The position numbers and the translations under genes were made by a program. Positions 23,601 through 30,345 of a DNA stretch of 37,747 bases are shown here, one piece after another. The notes beneath the pieces were generated by a model, which had not been told where the DNA came from, did no database searches, and saw only the letters and a list, made by a program, of their open reading frames with translations. Position 1 is the first letter of the stretch. The number at the start of each line of letters is the position of its first letter. The stretch comes from Acidobacteriota bacterium (GTDB taxonomy: Bacteria; Acidobacteriota; UBA4820; DSQY01), in contig JAKBES010000001.1 in assembly GCA_021833665.1 (NCBI GenBank), positions 13,489 through 51,235 on the forward strand, read 5' to 3'.

Positions 23601-23803
23601 GATCCACCTCCTCACGCCTGTTTCTTTAAACGCAGGGCTGAGGACCAAGGTTTCACGGAGCCCTTCCCAGCCAACCTGCCTGCTCCTCCGAATGCCCGTG
23701 TTCCATGGGGAAGGCGCCTGAGGTACACTAACGGCCTTCGCGGCCCCCGAGAAGCGGGAGCTCGCGATTCGGTGTTCCGTCCCTGTTTGAGGAGAAACGA
23801 CCC

Positions 23804-24373
23804 ATGCACCTGAAACCCTTCGCGATCCCGGCGGCGCTGCTCCTGGCCTGCCTTGGCCTTGCCTGTTCCAAGCCCGCCACCCCCAACAACCAATCCCAGA
23901 CGGGACAGGTCGCCGCCCCGGCGGCCGCGTCCGAATCCACCGCCTCGCCCGCCCCCTCCGACCCCATTCAGAAGGCCGTCTACGCCTACCTCCAGGATGT
24001 GCGCCAGCTGAACCTGTCCAAGATGGACGTGGCGGTGACGGACCAGAAGATCGAAGGGGACAAGGCCACCTGCGACGTTACCTTCACCGTGAAGGGCGGG
24101 GGCATGACGCCCATGGAGTACACCTACGACCTGGTCCAGGAAAGCGGCGCCTGGAAGGTCACCTCGTCCAAATCCAAAAGCGGCGCCCACGGCGGCGGCA
24201 TGCCCCCGGGCACGGGCGAGATGCCTCCCGGCCACCCCGCCATGGGAGGCGAGGGCGCTCCCTCCGGGATGCCCGCCCACGGAGACACCACGGGGCTTCC
24301 GGCGGGCCACCCTTCGGTGGACGCCCAGCCCGCCCCGGCACCGGCCCCCGCGGCAGCACCCAAGGCCAACTAG
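23804..24373 (+). CDS. Lipoprotein with Met/His/Gly/Pro-rich C-terminal tail
   Basis: A 189-aa predicted lipoprotein. Its signal peptide ends in the lipobox LACS with Cys21, and the next residue is Ser-Lys, favouring outer-membrane or periplasmic anchoring. An Ala/Ser/Pro linker follows up to about residue 50. A small alpha-beta domain from about 53 to 122 (DPIQKAVYAYLQDVRQLNL to SGAWKVTSS) resembles the ketosteroid-isomerase-like or lumazine-binding-like folds in which the motif 'GAWKV' is common; this is weak inference. The tail from 125 repeats MPPG, GHPAMGG, MPAHG and LPAGHP and ends in an Ala-Pro run, so metal binding is possible. GAGGAG precedes the ATG at 23804. A strong terminator follows. 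Function is unknown. Confidence 0.82.
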   Translation: MHLKPFAIPAALLLACLGLACSKPATPNNQSQTGQVAAPAAASESTASPAPSDPIQKAVYAYLQDVRQLNLSKMDVAVTDQKIEGDKATCDVTFTVKGGGMTPMEYTYDLVQESGAWKVTSSKSKSGAHGGGMPPGTGEMPPGHPAMGGEGAPSGMPAHGDTTGLPAGHPSVDAQPAPAPAPAAAPKAN

Positions 24374-24429: not shown

Positions 24430-25785
24430 TTACGGCAGGAGCAGGGCGAGGGCTTCGTCGAGCCGGGTGACGGGGTGCAGGGTGATCCCCCTGGGAGGGT
24501 TCTCCAGGCGCTTGTGGTCGGAGGCGGGAAGGAGGCAGCGCGTGAAGCCCAGCGCCGCAGCCTCAACCGCCCGGGCGCGGGCCGAACCCACGCCTCGGAT
24601 CTCACCCGCGAGGCCCACTTCGCCGAAAGCCGCCAGCTCGGACGGGAGGGCCTCACCCCGGTAGGCCGAGGCCACGGCCATGCACAGGGGCAGGTCCAGG
24701 GCCGGTTCGTCCAGCTCCACGCCGCCCACCACGTTCACGAAGAGATCCCGGTCCCCCATGGTCATTCGGGCCGCTCGCTCCAGCACGGCGGTGAGGAGCT
24801 GGACGCGGTTGCGGTCCAGCCCCAGGCTCATGCGCTTGGCCAGACCGAAGGCGGAGGGGCTGGTGAGCGCCTGGATCTCGAAGAGGAGGGGCCGCGTCCC
24901 CTGAACGGCCACGCCGATGATAGAACCTGGAACGTGCAGGGGCCGGTCCGCCAGGAGAGCCGCCGAAGGGTTCTCCACCTCCTTGAGACCCTCCCCGGTC
25001 ATGTCCAGCAGGGCCAGCTCGGAGGTGGCGCCGAAGCGGTTCTTTTGAGCCCGGAGCACCTTCAGGTGGCGGTACTTGTCCCCCTCCAGGTAGAGGACCG
25101 TATCCACCATGTGCTCCAGGGCCTTGGGGCCGGCGATCATACCGTCCTTCGTGATGTGGCCCACCATCACCACGGGCATGCCTCGCCCCTTGGCCACTTC
25201 GATGAGGCGCGCCGAGCACTCCCGCACCTGGGAGAGGGATCCGGGCGTGGCGCTCAGGGCCGAGGTGCCCGCGGTTTGGATGGAGTCCACGGCCAGGGCG
25301 GCGGGAGCGAGGCGCTCCACCTCCCCGAGGATGGCTTCGAGAGACGTCTCGGCGTAGAGATTCAGGGTGGACGATTCGATGCCCAGCCGGCCGGCCCGGG
25401 CGGCCACTTGAGCCAGGGACTCCTCGCCGCTGGCGTAGAGGAGAGTGCGGCCCCGGGCGAGGTGCCCGAAGAGCTGGAGGAGGAGGGTGGATTTCCCGAC
25501 ACCCGGATCTCCTCCCAGGAGGGTGACGCCGCCGGGAAAGAGGCCGCCTCCCAGCACCCGGTCCACCTCGGCCATGCCGGTGAACAGGCGCGCGCCCTCG
25601 TCGAAGGACACCTCCGGAAGGGGCGTGGCACGGCCCGCCTTGCGCGGAAGGCCAGGGCGCGGCTCCTCGCCTCCCGAGACTTCTTCCACCAGCGTGTTCC
25701 ACTCGCCGCACCCAGAGCAGCGCCCCATCCACTTAGGGCTCTGGGTCCCGCACGACTGGCACACGAACACCGTCGAGGCCTTCAA
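24430..25785 (-). CDS. radA: DNA repair protein RadA (Sms)
   Basis: A 451-aa bacterial RadA, a RecA-like ATPase that promotes branch migration in recombination and repair. The N-terminal zinc finger is C9-x2-C12...C23-x2-C26. The Walker A motif GGDPGVGKST is near residues 91-100, the RadA-specific KNRFG motif lies near 250, and a Lon-protease-like domain (from about 270) ends the protein. Start choice is uncertain. No ATG exists near the zinc finger, and TTG at 25785 gives MKASTVFVCQSCG, which fits the family spacing. TTG at 25800 would add five residues. Both lie at the edge of the inverted-repeat element (25784-25938), whose left arm touches the chosen start codon. The upstream ribosome site is weak (GGCGG). 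Confidence 0.93.
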   Translation of the reverse strand: MKASTVFVCQSCGTQSPKWMGRCSGCGEWNTLVEEVSGGEEPRPGLPRKAGRATPLPEVSFDEGARLFTGMAEVDRVLGGGLFPGGVTLLGGDPGVGKSTLLLQLFGHLARGRTLLYASGEESLAQVAARAGRLGIESSTLNLYAETSLEAILGEVERLAPAALAVDSIQTAGTSALSATPGSLSQVRECSARLIEVAKGRGMPVVMVGHITKDGMIAGPKALEHMVDTVLYLEGDKYRHLKVLRAQKNRFGATSELALLDMTGEGLKEVENPSAALLADRPLHVPGSIIGVAVQGTRPLLFEIQALTSPSAFGLAKRMSLGLDRNRVQLLTAVLERAARMTMGDRDLFVNVVGGVELDEPALDLPLCMAVASAYRGEALPSELAAFGEVGLAGEIRGVGSARARAVEAAALGFTRCLLPASDHKRLENPPRGITLHPVTRLDEALALLLP

Positions 25786-25938
25786 GGAACGAACCGCCAA
25801 GGCAACAAAGCACCAAGTAATGGCTTGGGGTCATGGAGGTACTCGTGTCGTCTTATGACACCTTGCCACCGGTCCACGTTCGTGCGGGACATTTTTCCGC
25901 TCTCGTGGTGTCTTGGTGCCTCGGTGGCAGGCTTCCTT
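25784..25938. repeat. Imperfect inverted-repeat element between radA and pyrC
   Basis: The left arm 25784-25817 and the reverse complement of the right arm 25902-25938 align over about 35 bases. Both begin AAGGAA, then share a CCGCC/CCACC block, AGGCA-C-A and CACCA-G words. The 84-bp centre has no gene. The element fills the whole gap, ending one base before the pyrC stop codon and touching the radA start. The runs of CCAAG-type words resemble interspersed intergenic repeats I have seen in other bacteria, but I cannot name the family. Confidence 0.6.
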
Positions 25939-25939
25939 G

Positions 25940-27217
25940 TCATCTCGCCGGGTACACCCGGCCGGCGATGACCACGGCCACCACGGCCCCTTTCAGCTTC
26001 ATCCCCAGAAAGGGGGTGTTCTTGCTCAGGGACTGGATGTCCTCGGCCTTGAGGCAGGTCTGCTTGCGCAAGGAAAAGAGGGTGAAGTCCGCCTCCGCGC
26101 CCGGAGCGATCCTCCCCTTGTCCGTCAGGCCCAGCAGGCGCGCGGGAGCGCAGGAGAAGGCATCCACCATGCGTTTGAGGGAAATGCGGTCGGTCTTGAC
26201 GAGGCGGTCGAGGGCCAGGGGCACGGCGGTCTGGAGGCCGATGATCCCGTTGGGGGCCCGGTCGAACTCCACCATTTTCTCCTCGTAGGCGTGCGGGGCG
26301 TGGTCCGTAACGATGGCGTCGAGGGTGCCGTCGGCCAAGCCTTCGATGACTGCCTCCACGTCGTCCTTCCCCCTCAAGGGAGGGTTCATCTTGGCGTTGG
26401 TGTCGAACCCCAGCACCGCCTCATCCGTGAGGGTGAAGTGGTGGGGCGTAGCCTCGGCGGAGACGGGAAGGCGCTTTTTCTTGGCGGCGCGGATGGCCTC
26501 CACACCCAGCCGGGTCGAGACGTGGGCGATGTGGACTCGCTGCCCCGTGAGGCGCGCCAGGGAGATGTCGCGGCGAATGGGGATGATTTCGGCCTCGGCA
26601 GGGATGCCCTTGAGCCCCAGGCGCACCGAAACCGTGCCCTCGTGCATGGAGCCCTCTCCCGCCAGATCCGTGTCCTCGCAGTGGTCGATGACCAGCAGCC
26701 CCAGGGAGCCCGCGTATTCCATGGCCCGGCGCATGACCGAGGCCTTCACCACGGGCTTGCCGTCGTCCGAAAGGGCCCGCGCGCCCGCCTCCCTCAGCTC
26801 AGCGTAGGGGGCCAGCTCCTCGCCCTTGGATTCTTTCGTGATGGCCCCGATGGGATAGACGTGAACGGGACTTGCAGCCTTGGCCCTATCCAAAATGAAG
26901 CGGGTCACGGAGGCGCTGTCGTTGACGGGGTCCGTATTGGGCATGCAGCAGACGCCCGTGAAGCCTCCCGCGAGAGCCGCCGCCAGGCCCGTGGCGATGG
27001 TCTCCTTGCGCTCGTAGCCGGGCTCTCGCAGGTGCACGTGCATGTCGATGAATCCCGGGGCCACGATGAGGCCCGTGGCGTCCAGGATCTCGGCCCCCTT
27101 GGCCTCCAGCTTCTTATCCACGGCCTCCACCCGGCCGTCCTTGATGAGCACGTCGAGGGTCTCGTCGGTGCCCGAAGAGGGGTCCACCACGCGGCCGTTC
27201 TTAATGAGCAGATACAT
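25940..27217 (-). CDS. pyrC: Dihydroorotase (class I)
   Basis: A 425-aa amidohydrolase that closes carbamoyl-aspartate to dihydroorotate, third step of pyrimidine synthesis. Metal ligands and active-site residues are visible: H60 and H62 in [11 protein letters not shown]152 in SDDGKPV, H179 in IDHCED, H232 in IAHVST and D305 in VTDHAPH. Asp at the bridging position instead of a carboxylated lysine is seen in class I enzymes such as that of Aquifex, where the protein works in a complex with PyrB. ATG 27217 overlaps the end of pyrB by 17 bases, with GGAGG five bases upstream. It is the last gene of the pyr operon and is followed by the inverted-repeat element; no terminator is obvious. Confidence 0.96.
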
Positions 27218-28139
27218 CTTCCCCTCCGCCCAGCAGGAGGTACAGCACGGCCATGCGAACCGACACGCCGTTCTCCACCTGGTCCAGGATCACCGAGTAC
27301 GGCCCGTCGGCCACCTCGGAGGCGATCTCCACCCCCCGGTTCATGGGCCCGGGGTGCATGACGATGACGTCCTTATCCGCCAGTTTCAGCCGCTCTTCGG
27401 TGAGGCCGTAACGCTGGTAGTACTCCATGAGGGAGGGGAAGAGGCCGCGCGTCTGCCGCTCGAGCTGGATGCGCAGCATCATGACCACGTCCTTGCCCCT
27501 GATCGCCTCCTCGAACGCCGTACTCGCCTTCACACCGAGGCTCTCGATGTGCGGCGGGAGCAAGGTGGCGGGCCCGCACACCGTGACCTCGGCACCCATC
27601 GTGTTGAGGAGGTGGATGTTGGACCGCACCACGCGGGAGTGGGCGATGTCTCCCGCGATGAGAACCCGGAGGCCCTTGAAGCTGCCCTTCCGCTGCCGGA
27701 TGGTCATGGCATCGAGGAGGGCCTGCGTGGGATGTTCATGGGCGCCGTCTCCCGCGTTGACGATGGACGCCTTGGTGAACCCGCTGATGAGCTGGCCCAC
27801 ACCGGGGCTGGGGTGCCGCATGACGTAGCAGTCGGGCATCATGCGCTCGACGTTGAGGATGGTGTCCACGAGAGATTCGCCCTTGCTCACCGAGGAGGTG
27901 CTGGCGGAGAAGTTCAGGGTGTCGGCGCTCAGGCGCTTCTCGGCGATCTCGAAGGAGGAGCGGGTGCGGGTGGAGTTTTCGAAGAACAGGTTCACCACGA
28001 GCTTGGCGCGGAGGGCCGGCACTTTTTTGACGGGACGCGTGGCCACCTCGGCCATCTTCTCCGCCGTGTCCAGGATGAGGGTGATCTCTTCCGGCGCGAG
28101 CCCTTCGATGCCCAGGAGGTGTTTGTGTCGCCAGTTCAT
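27201..28139 (-). CDS. pyrB: Aspartate carbamoyltransferase catalytic subunit
   Basis: A 312-aa transcarbamoylase that joins carbamoyl phosphate and aspartate in pyrimidine synthesis. The carbamoyl-phosphate motif NSTRTR is at residues 55-60 ([13 protein letters not shown]). It has the [13 protein letters not shown] segment near 135 and the aspartate-side motif [10 protein letters not shown] near 273. No pyrI regulatory gene is nearby, which suits control through PyrR and association with the class I dihydroorotase. The start overlaps the pyrR stop as ATGA, and its end overlaps pyrC. Confidence 0.97.
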
Positions 28140-28693
28140 GGTCTCCCCTCCTTGGCGGTGATCTGCGTCTCCAACAAGAGCGCGTCCTCTCCGTCGAACT
28201 CGGTCAGGTGAAGCTCTACGTGGTCTTCGCGCCGCGTGTTGAGGGAGAGGCCCACGTAGTCAGCCTGGATGGGCAGTTCCCGGTGGCCGCGGTCCACGAG
28301 GACCGCGAGCTGGACCCGGGCGGGGCGCCCCAAATCCACGAGGGCATCAAGGGCCGCTCGGATGGTCCTTCCGGTGAACAAGACGTCATCCACCAAGACG
28401 ACCGTCCGCCCTTCGATGTCGAAGTCCACCTGGGTTCCACGCAGGACGGGAGCCGTCCCCGCGCTGGAAAAATCGTCCCGGTAGAGGTTGATGTCCAGGC
28501 TTCCCACGGGCACCTGCACCTTCTCCACTTCGTTGAGCTTGTCCGCAATTCGCCGGGCCAGAGGCACGCCTCGACGGTGGATGCCGATGAGGGCCGCGCC
28601 TTGGCACCCTTGGAGGCGCTCGGCGAGTTCCAGGGCCAGACGGCCCAGGGTGCGCTGGATTCCCGCCGCGTCGAGGATGGTCTTCCGCTTCAT
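28136..28693 (-). CDS. pyrR: Bifunctional pyr operon regulator / uracil phosphoribosyltransferase PyrR
   Basis: A 185-aa PRTase-fold protein. The PRPP loop [17 protein letters not shown] spans residues 98-114. [12 protein letters not shown] near 65 and [10 protein letters not shown] near 37 are typical of PyrR. In relatives it binds UMP and then a conserved hairpin in the pyr leader RNA to reduce expression, and it also converts uracil to UMP. ATG 28693 has AAGGAG nine bases upstream. The frame is open 33 codons further, but those lie in the leader. It is the first gene of pyrR-pyrB-pyrC, all joined by overlaps. Confidence 0.95.
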
Positions 28694-28730
28694 GGGATCG
28701 GTCTCCTTGGTCGGGGGGGCTGAGGGTGGG

Positions 28731-28747
28731 CGCCCCTCCCCGGGACT
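28731..28747 (-). promoter_or_regulatory. Possible PyrR-binding loop in the pyr leader RNA
   Basis: The leader contains AGTCCCGGGGAGGGGCG, close to the PyrR anti-attenuator consensus AGUCCnGnGAGGnUG as I recall it; the final U is C here. It lies about 40 bases before the pyrR start and 45 after the predicted transcript start. Flanking G-rich and C-rich stretches could pair. I see no terminator T-run, so control would be at translation if it is real. Confidence 0.45.
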
Positions 28748-28797
28748 ACCCCTCACGGACGACGGAAGGGGTGGCGCGGTCTCTCCGGTCATGGTTC

Positions 28798-28826
28798 AGT
28801 TTACCGTGGCCCGTGCCCAGCGTCAA
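28798..28826 (-). promoter_or_regulatory. Sigma70-type promoter of the pyrRBC operon
   Basis: Minus strand -35 TTGACG (28826-28821), 17-base spacer and -10 TAAACT (28803-28798). The predicted start near 28791 gives a leader of about 98 bases. Confidence 0.72.
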
Positions 28827-28869
28827 CGCGGCACGGCCCGGTGAAAAAGCCCTGAAAGGCTGTGTCAGC

Positions 28870-28899
28870 TTGACAGAGGGCGGGCTCGGGTGGTAGGTT
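28870..28899 (+). promoter_or_regulatory. Sigma70-type promoter of the cold-shock gene
   Basis: A perfect -35 TTGACA (28870-28875), an 18-base spacer and -10 TAGGTT (28894-28899). The leader is about 50 bases. It is divergent from the pyr promoter, 43 bp away. Confidence 0.7.
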
Positions 28900-28955
28900 C
28901 GGGTCTCCGGTGAGCCCGTTTGCCGGAGGAACGGTTTCCATGTGAAGGAGCTGCA

Positions 28956-29162
28956 ATGTCTACAGGCACAGTGAAGTGGTTCGACGAGAAAAAGGGATAC
29001 GGGTTCATCACGGAAGATGGCGGTAAGGACGTATTCGTCCACTACAGCGCCATCGTAGGCAGCGGGTTCCGCAAGCTCGCTGAGGGAGAAAAGGTCTCCT
29101 TTGAAGTCAAGGAGGGGGCCAAAGGTCCGCAGGCGGATCAAGTTCAGGCGCTCCGCGACTAA
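28956..29162 (+). CDS. Cold-shock domain protein (CspA family)
   Basis: A 68-aa single-domain OB-fold protein that binds single-stranded RNA and DNA. RNP1 is KGYGFI (residues 13-18), RNP2 is VFVHY (26-30), and the start [18 protein letters not shown] is typical. AAGGAG lies five bases before the ATG at 28956; the in-frame start at 28920 is inside the leader. The gene has its own promoter and a strong terminator, so it is monocistronic. Whether it responds to cold cannot be told, since many family members are expressed constitutively. Confidence 0.96.
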
Positions 29163-29190
29163 CCGCCAACGGTTACGACGGACAAACCCC

Positions 29191-29218
29191 AAGGGGCCCT
29201 CGGGCCCCTTTTCTTTTT
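29191..29218 (+). terminator. Intrinsic terminator of the cold-shock gene
   Basis: Stem AAGGGGCC/GGCCCCTT around a CTCG loop (29191-29210) is followed by TTCTTTTT, 28 bases after the stop codon. Confidence 0.92.
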
Positions 29219-29300
29219 GGGGGGTGCCCCCCTCTGGACATCCTTCGTCCAGCGGTTCATACTTAGAGCAGAATCGAGTTTGGTTTCGGGGGGCCTCTCT

Positions 29301-29762
29301 ATGTTGGACCGTCGCCGAGCCTTGAGAATTTCGCCCAAGAAGCCCATCAAGGCCAAGGTTAAGACGTCCCTGACCGCCCGGGTGGTGGATATCTCCTCCC
29401 TCGGGGTGCAGGTGGAGCTGGCCTACTCTCTCCCTCTGCGCACACGCTGCGACGTGCGCCTGCAAAACGGCGGGGCGGACCTCTCCCTCACGGGGACGGT
29501 GCGCCGATGCACGGTCCTGGGCTGGACGGAGCACGACGGGAAGAAGGTGCTCATGTACCGTGCGGGGCTTGAATTCGAGGGAACAACCCGGGAGCTGGTG
29601 CGGGCGCTGGAGGCCAAATTCCCCGAACTCTTCGAAGAGGCCCGGCCAACGAGTCACGACCTCCTTTCTCAAGGTGAGGCCGCTTCGCCCAAAGACATTG
29701 AAGTGATCATCCAAGTGCAGGACGGCGGAAAAACGGACAAGCCTCCAGACCCAAAGGGCTGA
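29301..29762 (+). CDS. PilZ-domain protein (predicted cyclic-di-GMP binding)
   Basis: A 153-aa protein with one PilZ domain over residues 4 to about 105. The two ligand motifs are intact: R5-x3-R9 in the DRRRALR segment and D30-x-S-x-x-G35 in DISSLG. Binding of cyclic-di-GMP is therefore predicted. A short helical and acidic tail follows. The start at ATG 29301 matches the usual position just before RRxxxR; the ribosome site is a poor GGGGG run. An in-frame start at 29217 would lie in the preceding terminator. It has no signal peptide and is cytoplasmic. It is separated from the cold-shock gene by a terminator and is convergent with the DUF456 gene, so it probably has its own promoter, which I could not place. 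Confidence 0.87.
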   Translation: MLDRRRALRISPKKPIKAKVKTSLTARVVDISSLGVQVELAYSLPLRTRCDVRLQNGGADLSLTGTVRRCTVLGWTEHDGKKVLMYRAGLEFEGTTRELVRALEAKFPELFEEARPTSHDLLSQGEAASPKDIEVIIQVQDGGKTDKPPDPKG

Positions 29763-29776
29763 GGCAGGGTCCTTTC

Positions 29777-29796
29777 CCTTGGTGGGTGGACCAAGG
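29777..29796. terminator. Hairpin between convergent genes (possible bidirectional terminator)
   Basis: A 7-bp perfect stem CCTTGGT/ACCAAGG with a six-base loop fills most of the 34-bp gap between the PilZ and DUF456 stop codons. No T-run follows on either strand, so terminator function is doubtful. Confidence 0.3.
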
Positions 29797-30345
29797 TCAC
29801 CGGCCGGGTTCGCCCCAAACGCTCGCCAGGAGCCACACGACCCGCGCTCCGGCGAGAACCAGGAAGGCGCCTCCGCACCCCAGTTTGGCACCCAATCCCA
29901 CGGCCCGGCCCAAGGCCGCCCCAAGGCCGGCCAGGGCTGCGCGCCCCGCATGCCTTTGGCGGTAGAACTCGGAGGCCAGGGCGCCAAGAAAGGCCCCCAG
30001 GACCGTGCCGGGTATGGCCCCCAGGCCGTACCCAAACCCCGCGCCCACCAGGGCCCCGGCGATGGCGCCGGCCAGGGCGAATAGGCCGCTCCACCGGCTG
30101 CCGCCGAACGTCCGGGCACCCAAGTAGCCCGAGAGATGTTCCGCCACCTCCGCCACGGCGAACAGCACGAACCCCGTCCCGAGCACCCATAGGCGCATGG
30201 CGCGGAACCCCTCTCCCCAGCCGTAGAGGAGAGCGAGCAGAAGCATGATCCAGTTGCCCGGAAGGCTGAAGACGCTGGACGCCCAGGCCAGGGTGGCCAG
30301 AAGCAGGAAGGCGGCGCTCAGGGCGGTCAGCCATTCCGTGGTCAA
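29797..30345 (-). CDS. DUF456 family integral membrane protein
   Basis: A 182-aa hydrophobic protein with about four to five membrane segments. The first ends in the family signature SLPGNWIMLLLALLYGW (residues 27-43). Glycine-rich helices follow, with repeated small-residue motifs (GAIAGALVGAGFGYGLG). These match the DUF456 family, for which no molecular function is established. The only start giving the full first helix is TTG at 30345, with a GAGGG about eight bases upstream; this start is moderately certain. It is convergent with the PilZ gene. Upstream of it (30346-30392) is only the secDF terminator region. Confidence 0.8.
   Translation of the reverse strand: MTTEWLTALSAAFLLLATLAWASSVFSLPGNWIMLLLALLYGWGEGFRAMRLWVLGTGFVLFAVAEVAEHLSGYLGARTFGGSRWSGLFALAGAIAGALVGAGFGYGLGAIPGTVLGAFLGALASEFYRQRHAGRAALAGLGAALGRAVGLGAKLGCGGAFLVLAGARVVWLLASVWGEPGR

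Follow-up and report, generated by a model that had tools for sequence, protein, structure and literature searches.

The gap between pyrC and radA in the stretch of DNA analysed here, 37,747 nucleotides of an Acidobacteriota bacterium (GenBank assembly GCA_021833665.1, contig JAKBES010000001.1, positions 13,489 to 51,235; hereafter the window), is filled by a palindromic element whose two facing arms are built of tandem octamers. This hairpin is probably a gene-less, non-autonomous copy of a mobile family, the autonomous form of which comprises an arm, a GxxExxY gene and an inverted arm, about 500 bp in all; the putative nuclease encoded between the arms would drive the spread of the family. 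We read it best as a decayed derivative of a GxxExxY element, gene-less and similar to a miniature inverted-repeat transposable element (MITE). GxxExxY (TIGR04256 / PF13366 PDDEXK_3) is a PD-(D/E)XK nuclease family encoded by a stand-alone gene of about 130 amino acids.

An original prediction, made from the letters of the window, had described an inverted repeat in this gap, and both arms are present where it placed them. Each arm is a tandem of three octamers that fits, with mismatches, the degenerate pattern CCACCAAG-RCACCAAG-RCACCAAG, the + strand at 25794–25817 reading CCGCCAAGGCAACAAAGCACCAAG and the − strand at 25927–25904 reading CCACCGAGGCACCAAGACACCACG; outer AAGGAA/TTCCTT prolong the arms to 25784 and 25938, and the inverted repeat as a whole is imperfect. 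As predicted, the element is intergenic, lies beside a stop codon and occupies the entire gap, sharing two bases with the radA start codon and ending one base short of the pyrC stop. Its centre, given as 84 bp, measures 86 bases between the 24-mers. The statement that it is the only such element in the window is correct for the arm sequence (two pattern matches, both at this element, against none in 100 shuffles) but does not extend to other inverted repeats: if the arm words are disregarded the element is only moderately unusual, its inverted-repeat score being reached by 15 of 2000 shuffles and, within the window, by 364 of 7519 sliding stretches. The bare inverted-repeat statistic was too weak and was replaced by tests of the arm pattern. 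The window element shares with MITEs its terminal inverted repeats, zero coding capacity and dispersed copies.

The inverted repeat of the window is a dispersed element. The search for further arm copies advocated in the original prediction yielded 18 matches to a 24-mer arm pattern in the source genome (G000; 3.8 Mb in 408 contigs, assembly 94.8% complete), including the two window arms, at 15 places if the two arms of one element are counted once; a 21-mer pattern gave 14 matches, among them one of the window's two arms, and the reversed patterns gave none. By eye, many of these copies are hairpins that adjoin a stop codon and differ in their centres. Among the 14, those that have no facing arm at the 1% shuffle level are single or decayed arms, and one (locus L022) may be coding sequence. 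Separately, we observed that in the copy at L015 (G000:C227) an almost perfect inverted repeat is nested within one arm and breaks it up, an arrangement that would result if one palindrome had formed or been inserted inside another.

Presence of the element at the pyrC–radA junction varies among relatives. A single arm is left in the sister species (G002), whose RadA is 99% identical; in two genomes of the same family (G003 and G006) the gap lacks the element; and in four of the same order (G009–G012) the pyrC stop abuts the TTG start of radA with no element between. Upstream of radA, G007 and G004 have DNA other than pyrC. Judged by these comparisons the element is an insertion, which at radA separates genes that abut in the same-order relatives. 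Twelve other element sites were sought in G002 and orthologues found for ten; one of these is empty (L016/L240), one has diverged (L020) and the rest are shared.

GxxExxY and the arms occur in the same genomes. The phylum was represented by 297 genomes, of which 106 have GxxExxY and 71 carry the octamer arm pattern (at most one mismatch); GxxExxY is present in 60 of the 71 arm genomes versus 46 of the 226 others (p about 1e-22). Comparable figures were obtained by genus (39/44 versus 24/122) and for genomes with at least five arm copies (41/46 versus 65/251). Arm-pattern copies reach 291 per genome (G187, reversed control 12), and reversed controls were also nonzero elsewhere (29 versus 77 in G166; 25 versus 217 in G290).

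GxxExxY genes also lie between facing arms. We took 72 loci, comprising high-scoring matches from the phylum (30, and 40 chosen from the list) and two from the source genome; one lacked the motif and three had a short flank, leaving 68 to be scored. Using a score threshold of 31, which was set after earlier scores had been seen, facing repeats were found around 58 of these 68 genes compared with 4 of 442 control open reading frames (ORFs), with median scores of 45.5 and 20 respectively; the controls are mechanical stop-to-stop frames, many of which are not genes. A second set of 30 loci included four without the motif and one with a short flank, and the three GxxExxY locus sets used in this work overlap in several genomes. 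The arm-to-arm span of the 58 elements has a median of 498.5 bp (range 425–955), and 48 of them have tandem units in both arms (at least two CRC-(1-3 bases)-A(G/T) units per arm, counted manually). The general design is an ACCAC-like start followed by short tandem units, with cores that vary: CAGAG, CGGAG, CCGAG, CGAAG, CCAAG and CCGATG. The arms are of many types, the window's being one among them; CCACCAAG arms of the window type enclose GxxExxY at L123, L256, L260, L262, L267 and L275, and the window element itself has two facing tandem-unit arms of the same octamer type as found around GxxExxY genes. Of 20 radA loci, 0, 0 and 3 have the window's arm pattern at 0, 2 and 4 mismatches respectively.

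Arms and protein are coupled in sequence. Left and right arms within an element resemble each other to a degree equalled in none of 2000 shuffles, and arm similarity tracks protein identity (56 loci; Mantel r = 0.56 for all pairs, 0.53 between families and 0.73 within; 0 of 5000 permutations in each case). The 56 loci are those among the 68 that scored at least 31, minus L065 and L120; by our own reading the repeat at L120 is not of tandem design.

The source genome contains two GxxExxY genes. One, L041 (G000:C248), is bounded by arms that belong to a sister type, CCACCGATG; the other is at a contig end, where downstream arms were not seen. Because all five matches to CCACCGATG in the source genome are on the contig of L041, with none in G001, G002, G003 or G006 (and three in G007), and because the L041 protein shares 78% identity with L091 from G165 (G. 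fuzhouensis, by matching coordinates), the data suggest that this GxxExxY element is a recent arrival by transfer.

The L041 protein is predicted to fold as a PD-(D/E)XK nuclease, based on an AlphaFold2 model with a mean pLDDT (predicted local distance difference test) of 90.1 and a pTM (predicted template modelling score) of 0.83. The nearest solved fold found with VIA-align is SSO0001, a Cas4 (Z 9.7, root-mean-square deviation 3.7, 99 residues aligned); only two rows had Z of at least 8, and lower values may reflect no more than a common arrangement. Foldseek placed LHK-Exo nearest. MGME1, AddAB and archaeal Hjc (Z 6.9) ranked below these two; a sequence search of the PDB returned a single row (E = 0.25). 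GxxExxY has the family-model score and the catalytic residues of PF13366. Eight residues are invariant in 71 of 71 proteins (G33, E36, Y39, D75, K87, Q99, Y103 and N116) and E85 is present in 70; a QxxxY motif marks the RecB family. The median dN/dS for GxxExxY is 0.145 (33 of 96 pairs with usable dS). From these values and the conserved residues, the gene is under purifying selection and the putative nuclease looks catalytically competent.

The association extends across phyla. A search of named genomes with the perfect CCACCAAG palindrome pattern gave 82 matching stretches, of which 80 were listed; the genomes include Azospirillum, Geothrix and other Holophagaceae, Rhodospirillales, Rhodocyclales, Thiodictyon, Caenispirillum, Kouleothrix and others, as well as one metagenome-assembled genome each of Cytophagales, Verrucomicrobia and Phycisphaerales. 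GxxExxY was found in 26 of 28 named perfect-palindrome genomes, while none of 14 control genomes passed the cut-off and the phylum set stands at 106 of 297. From these 26 genomes 96 of 103 GxxExxY matches were taken; 17 lacked the motif, and facing repeats surround 70 of the 79 that were scored. Arms of the CCACCAAG type (at most three mismatches) enclose at least one GxxExxY gene in 10 of the 26 genomes. A crude comparison with mechanical ORFs placed 26 palindromes inside a frame, 10 at an edge and 14 far away, with 18 in co-directional, 8 in convergent and 6 in divergent gaps; the 18 co-directional ones start a median of 20 nt past the upstream stop, which is a hint only. When the perfect copies in Geothrix fermentans and in Azospirillum canadense were compared with congeners (17 of 21 elements yielded a comparison; 30 of 38 matching loci were used), 27 comparisons gave 5 filled sites, 4 half sites, 16 sites that lack this arm type and 2 for which only the left flank was found; one 'empty' site (L143/L308) retains a short arm remnant. 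An intergenic gap that in G. fermentans contains a CCACCAAG palindrome (L165) is occupied in a relative by an CCGCAGATGG palindrome (L282); one gene-end gap can therefore host more than one arm family.

We infer that GxxExxY cuts the arms and that the cut drives movement. When single-stranded, arms made of short tandem units after an ACCAC-like start would extrude as a DNA hairpin or cruciform; the PD-(D/E)XK nuclease would cut at or beside its own arm type; and host repair or replication could then copy the element into intergenic gaps, often just past a stop codon, giving rise to both gene-bearing and gene-less copies. A broader proposal, which we put forward tentatively and with somewhat less than even confidence, is that GxxExxY elements constitute a distinct minimal class of mobile DNA: a single PD-(D/E)XK nuclease of about 130 residues, without transposase or recombinase, would recognise and cut hairpins formed by its own tandem-unit arms; DNA repair would spread gene-bearing and gene-less copies into gene ends; and arm and enzyme would coevolve into many specificities (CCAAG, CAGAG, CGGAG, CGAAG, CCGATG and others) that pass between phyla. 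If true, this would explain a large family of unnamed intergenic repeats.

Several observations weigh against a mobile GxxExxY family as the origin of the window element. Only 7 of the 14 copies in its own genome have a facing arm at the 1% shuffle level, and in the source assembly, at the completeness and contig number given above, no GxxExxY gene was found between CCACCAAG arms. No scored repeats flank 10 of the 68 GxxExxY genes from the phylum or 9 of the 79 from perfect-palindrome genomes, and the window's strict octamer pattern occurs at only 9 of 72 GxxExxY loci (24 of 72 at up to four mismatches). The Mantel result is also compatible with passive co-inheritance of arm and gene. Nor is GxxExxY the only small gene flanked by inverted repeats, as 15 of 19 scored RAYT genes have them too (see below). 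The sister species G002 lacks GxxExxY and carries 17 arm matches, from which we conclude that copies outlive the gene; and as 8 of the 10 compared sites are common to G000 and G002, movement here is not recent. No movement intermediate was seen. The target-site duplications that the original prediction had advised looking for were not evident either, none being consistent at the empty sites compared (L016/L240, L178/L281, L178/L290 and L188/L289); TTCATGC occurs on both sides at L178 where the inserted stretch exceeds the palindrome, and nothing is claimed from this repeat.

The most serious alternative makes GxxExxY a mere passenger: a selfish gene for a nuclease would repeatedly have settled in palindromes made and spread by another activity such as replication slippage, template switching or an unknown transposase. 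PD-(D/E)XK nucleases also occur among homing enzymes, and five genomes without a GxxExxY match (G002, G007, G008, G061 and G109) have at least five gene-less copies each. Set against this are the strong co-occurrence of gene and arms and the match of arm to protein sequence even between families. In addition, 0.98 Mb of loci not selected for GxxExxY contained 98 facing arm pairs less than 250 bp apart and none at 250–1500 bp around any other gene, although the power of this comparison is low, since GxxExxY elements were also absent there. On balance we regard the passenger explanation as unlikely. Chance pairing of two CCAAG-rich stretches could account for a bare inverted-repeat score as common in the window as this one, but the arm pattern is missing from shuffles and from the reversed controls in the source genome, and because of its copy number a chance origin is refuted, leaving it a negligible probability.

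The original prediction had favoured a REP/BIME- or MITE-like element (repetitive extragenic palindrome; bacterial interspersed mosaic element), possibly moved by a REP-associated tyrosine transposase (RAYT) of the HUH type. The description as a small palindromic interspersed element is borne out by the genome copies and their variable presence in relatives, but the link to REP/BIME and RAYT is not. The arms are dispersed, palindromic and beside gene ends, and the source genome has 7 RAYT matches; however, RAYT (matches with E up to 0.001) is found in 47 of 71 arm genomes versus 153 of 226 others (p = 0.88), and 13 genomes with at least five arm copies have no RAYT match. It was mainly on this genome-level comparison that RAYT was rejected as the partner. 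Of 20 RAYT loci taken (L219–L238), one had a short flank, and 15 of the 19 scored have inverted repeats, which by eye are of other designs, some with cores like GGCTTNAGCC. The window's arm pattern was found at 0 of 20 at 0, 2 and 4 mismatches, a result that is weak alone given the scarcity of the strict pattern at GxxExxY loci themselves. Neither GTAG nor CGTC was found within 8 nt outside an arm in any of the 82 perfect palindromes, which therefore lack the GTAG-like tetranucleotide that precedes the 20–50 nt palindrome of a REP. Movement by RAYT is thus very improbable. We give similarly little credence to the idea that the pyrR-pyrB-pyrC-radA transcript is regulated here by an RNA structure peculiar to this locus, be it an attenuator, a terminator or an RNase site. 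pyrR does lie upstream, and the − strand RNA of the element has a folding energy of −60.7 kcal/mol (z = −2.98), equalled by 1 of 200 shuffles, but Rfam covariance models had no match to 25600–26100 up to E = 1, relatives have the junction without the element, and the same arms occur at unrelated loci. The element would nevertheless place a stable hairpin against the radA start codon, so that an effect on radA translation is plausible and a secondary effect on radA expression possible.

The coordinates of the element and its neighbours are given in Table 1. The genes pyrR, pyrB, pyrC and radA follow one another in compact order, all on the − strand. Two further ORFs, at 23612–24310 (−, 232 aa) and 28746–30119 (−, 457 aa), matched nothing in NCBIfam or Pfam under the cut-offs applied, and each may be a spurious frame.

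Table 1. Features of the window at and around the pyrC–radA junction.
Feature	Coordinates	Strand	Basis or remark
Gene-less palindromic element filling the pyrC–radA gap	25784–25938	−	Inverted-repeat analysis; relatives lack it or retain only part
Arm 1, three tandem octamers CCACCGAG-GCACCAAG-ACACCACG; the 5' arm when the pyrC–radA coding strand is read	25904–25927	−	2 mismatches to CCACSAAGRCACSAAGRCACSAAG
Arm 2, facing arm 1, CCGCCAAG-GCAACAAA-GCACCAAG	25794–25817	+	3 mismatches to CCACSAAGRCACSAAGRCACSAAG
Centre, 86 bases between the arms	25818–25903	none	Centres differ between copies, by eye
radA, TTG start (25785–25783) directly beside the element	24430–25785	−	NCBIfam TIGR00416; start chosen by comparison with relatives
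pyrC, dihydroorotase, stop (25942–25940) one base from the element	25940–27217	−	TIGR00857
pyrB	27201–28139	−	Compact gene order
pyrR	28136–28792	−	Compact gene order; upstream of pyrC–radA

Arms of this design number dozens to hundreds in some genomes, and the link between repeat and gene provides a testable role for GxxExxY and a candidate enzyme for the repeats. A literature search by title and abstract, of partial coverage, found no paper about these elements or about a tie between such arms and GxxExxY, which points to the arm-bounded GxxExxY gene being a kind of small mobile element not described in the literature searched. MITEs are alike in their terminal inverted repeats, lack of coding capacity, intergenic position and dispersal; here a parent insertion sequence and a target-site duplication were not found, and the arms make up a large share of the element. 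GxxExxY resembles the RecB/Cas4-like PD-(D/E)XK nucleases (SSO0001, LHK-Exo, MGME1 and the AddAB domain) in predicted fold and in its conserved D, E, K, Q and Y positions, and differs from them in being a stand-alone gene between inverted arms. The closest described analogues are REP/RAYT and TIRtron/TIRYT (PMC8266576; PMC3733652). REPs and REPINs with RAYT (TnpA-REP) share the short, dispersed intergenic palindromes and a dedicated small enzyme gene near or between repeat copies, whereas here two 24-nt tandem-unit arms surround a variable centre, the GTAG tag is missing and the gene encodes a PD-(D/E)XK nuclease. TIRtrons likewise have a small enzyme gene between inverted repeats and, in some genomes, a repeat family as well; their TIRYTs, however, are tyrosine transposases with an HUH domain. 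The link between repeat and gene further suggests that a mobile repeat family may be kept going by nothing more than a nuclease, in parallel to REP/RAYT but with an unrelated enzyme.
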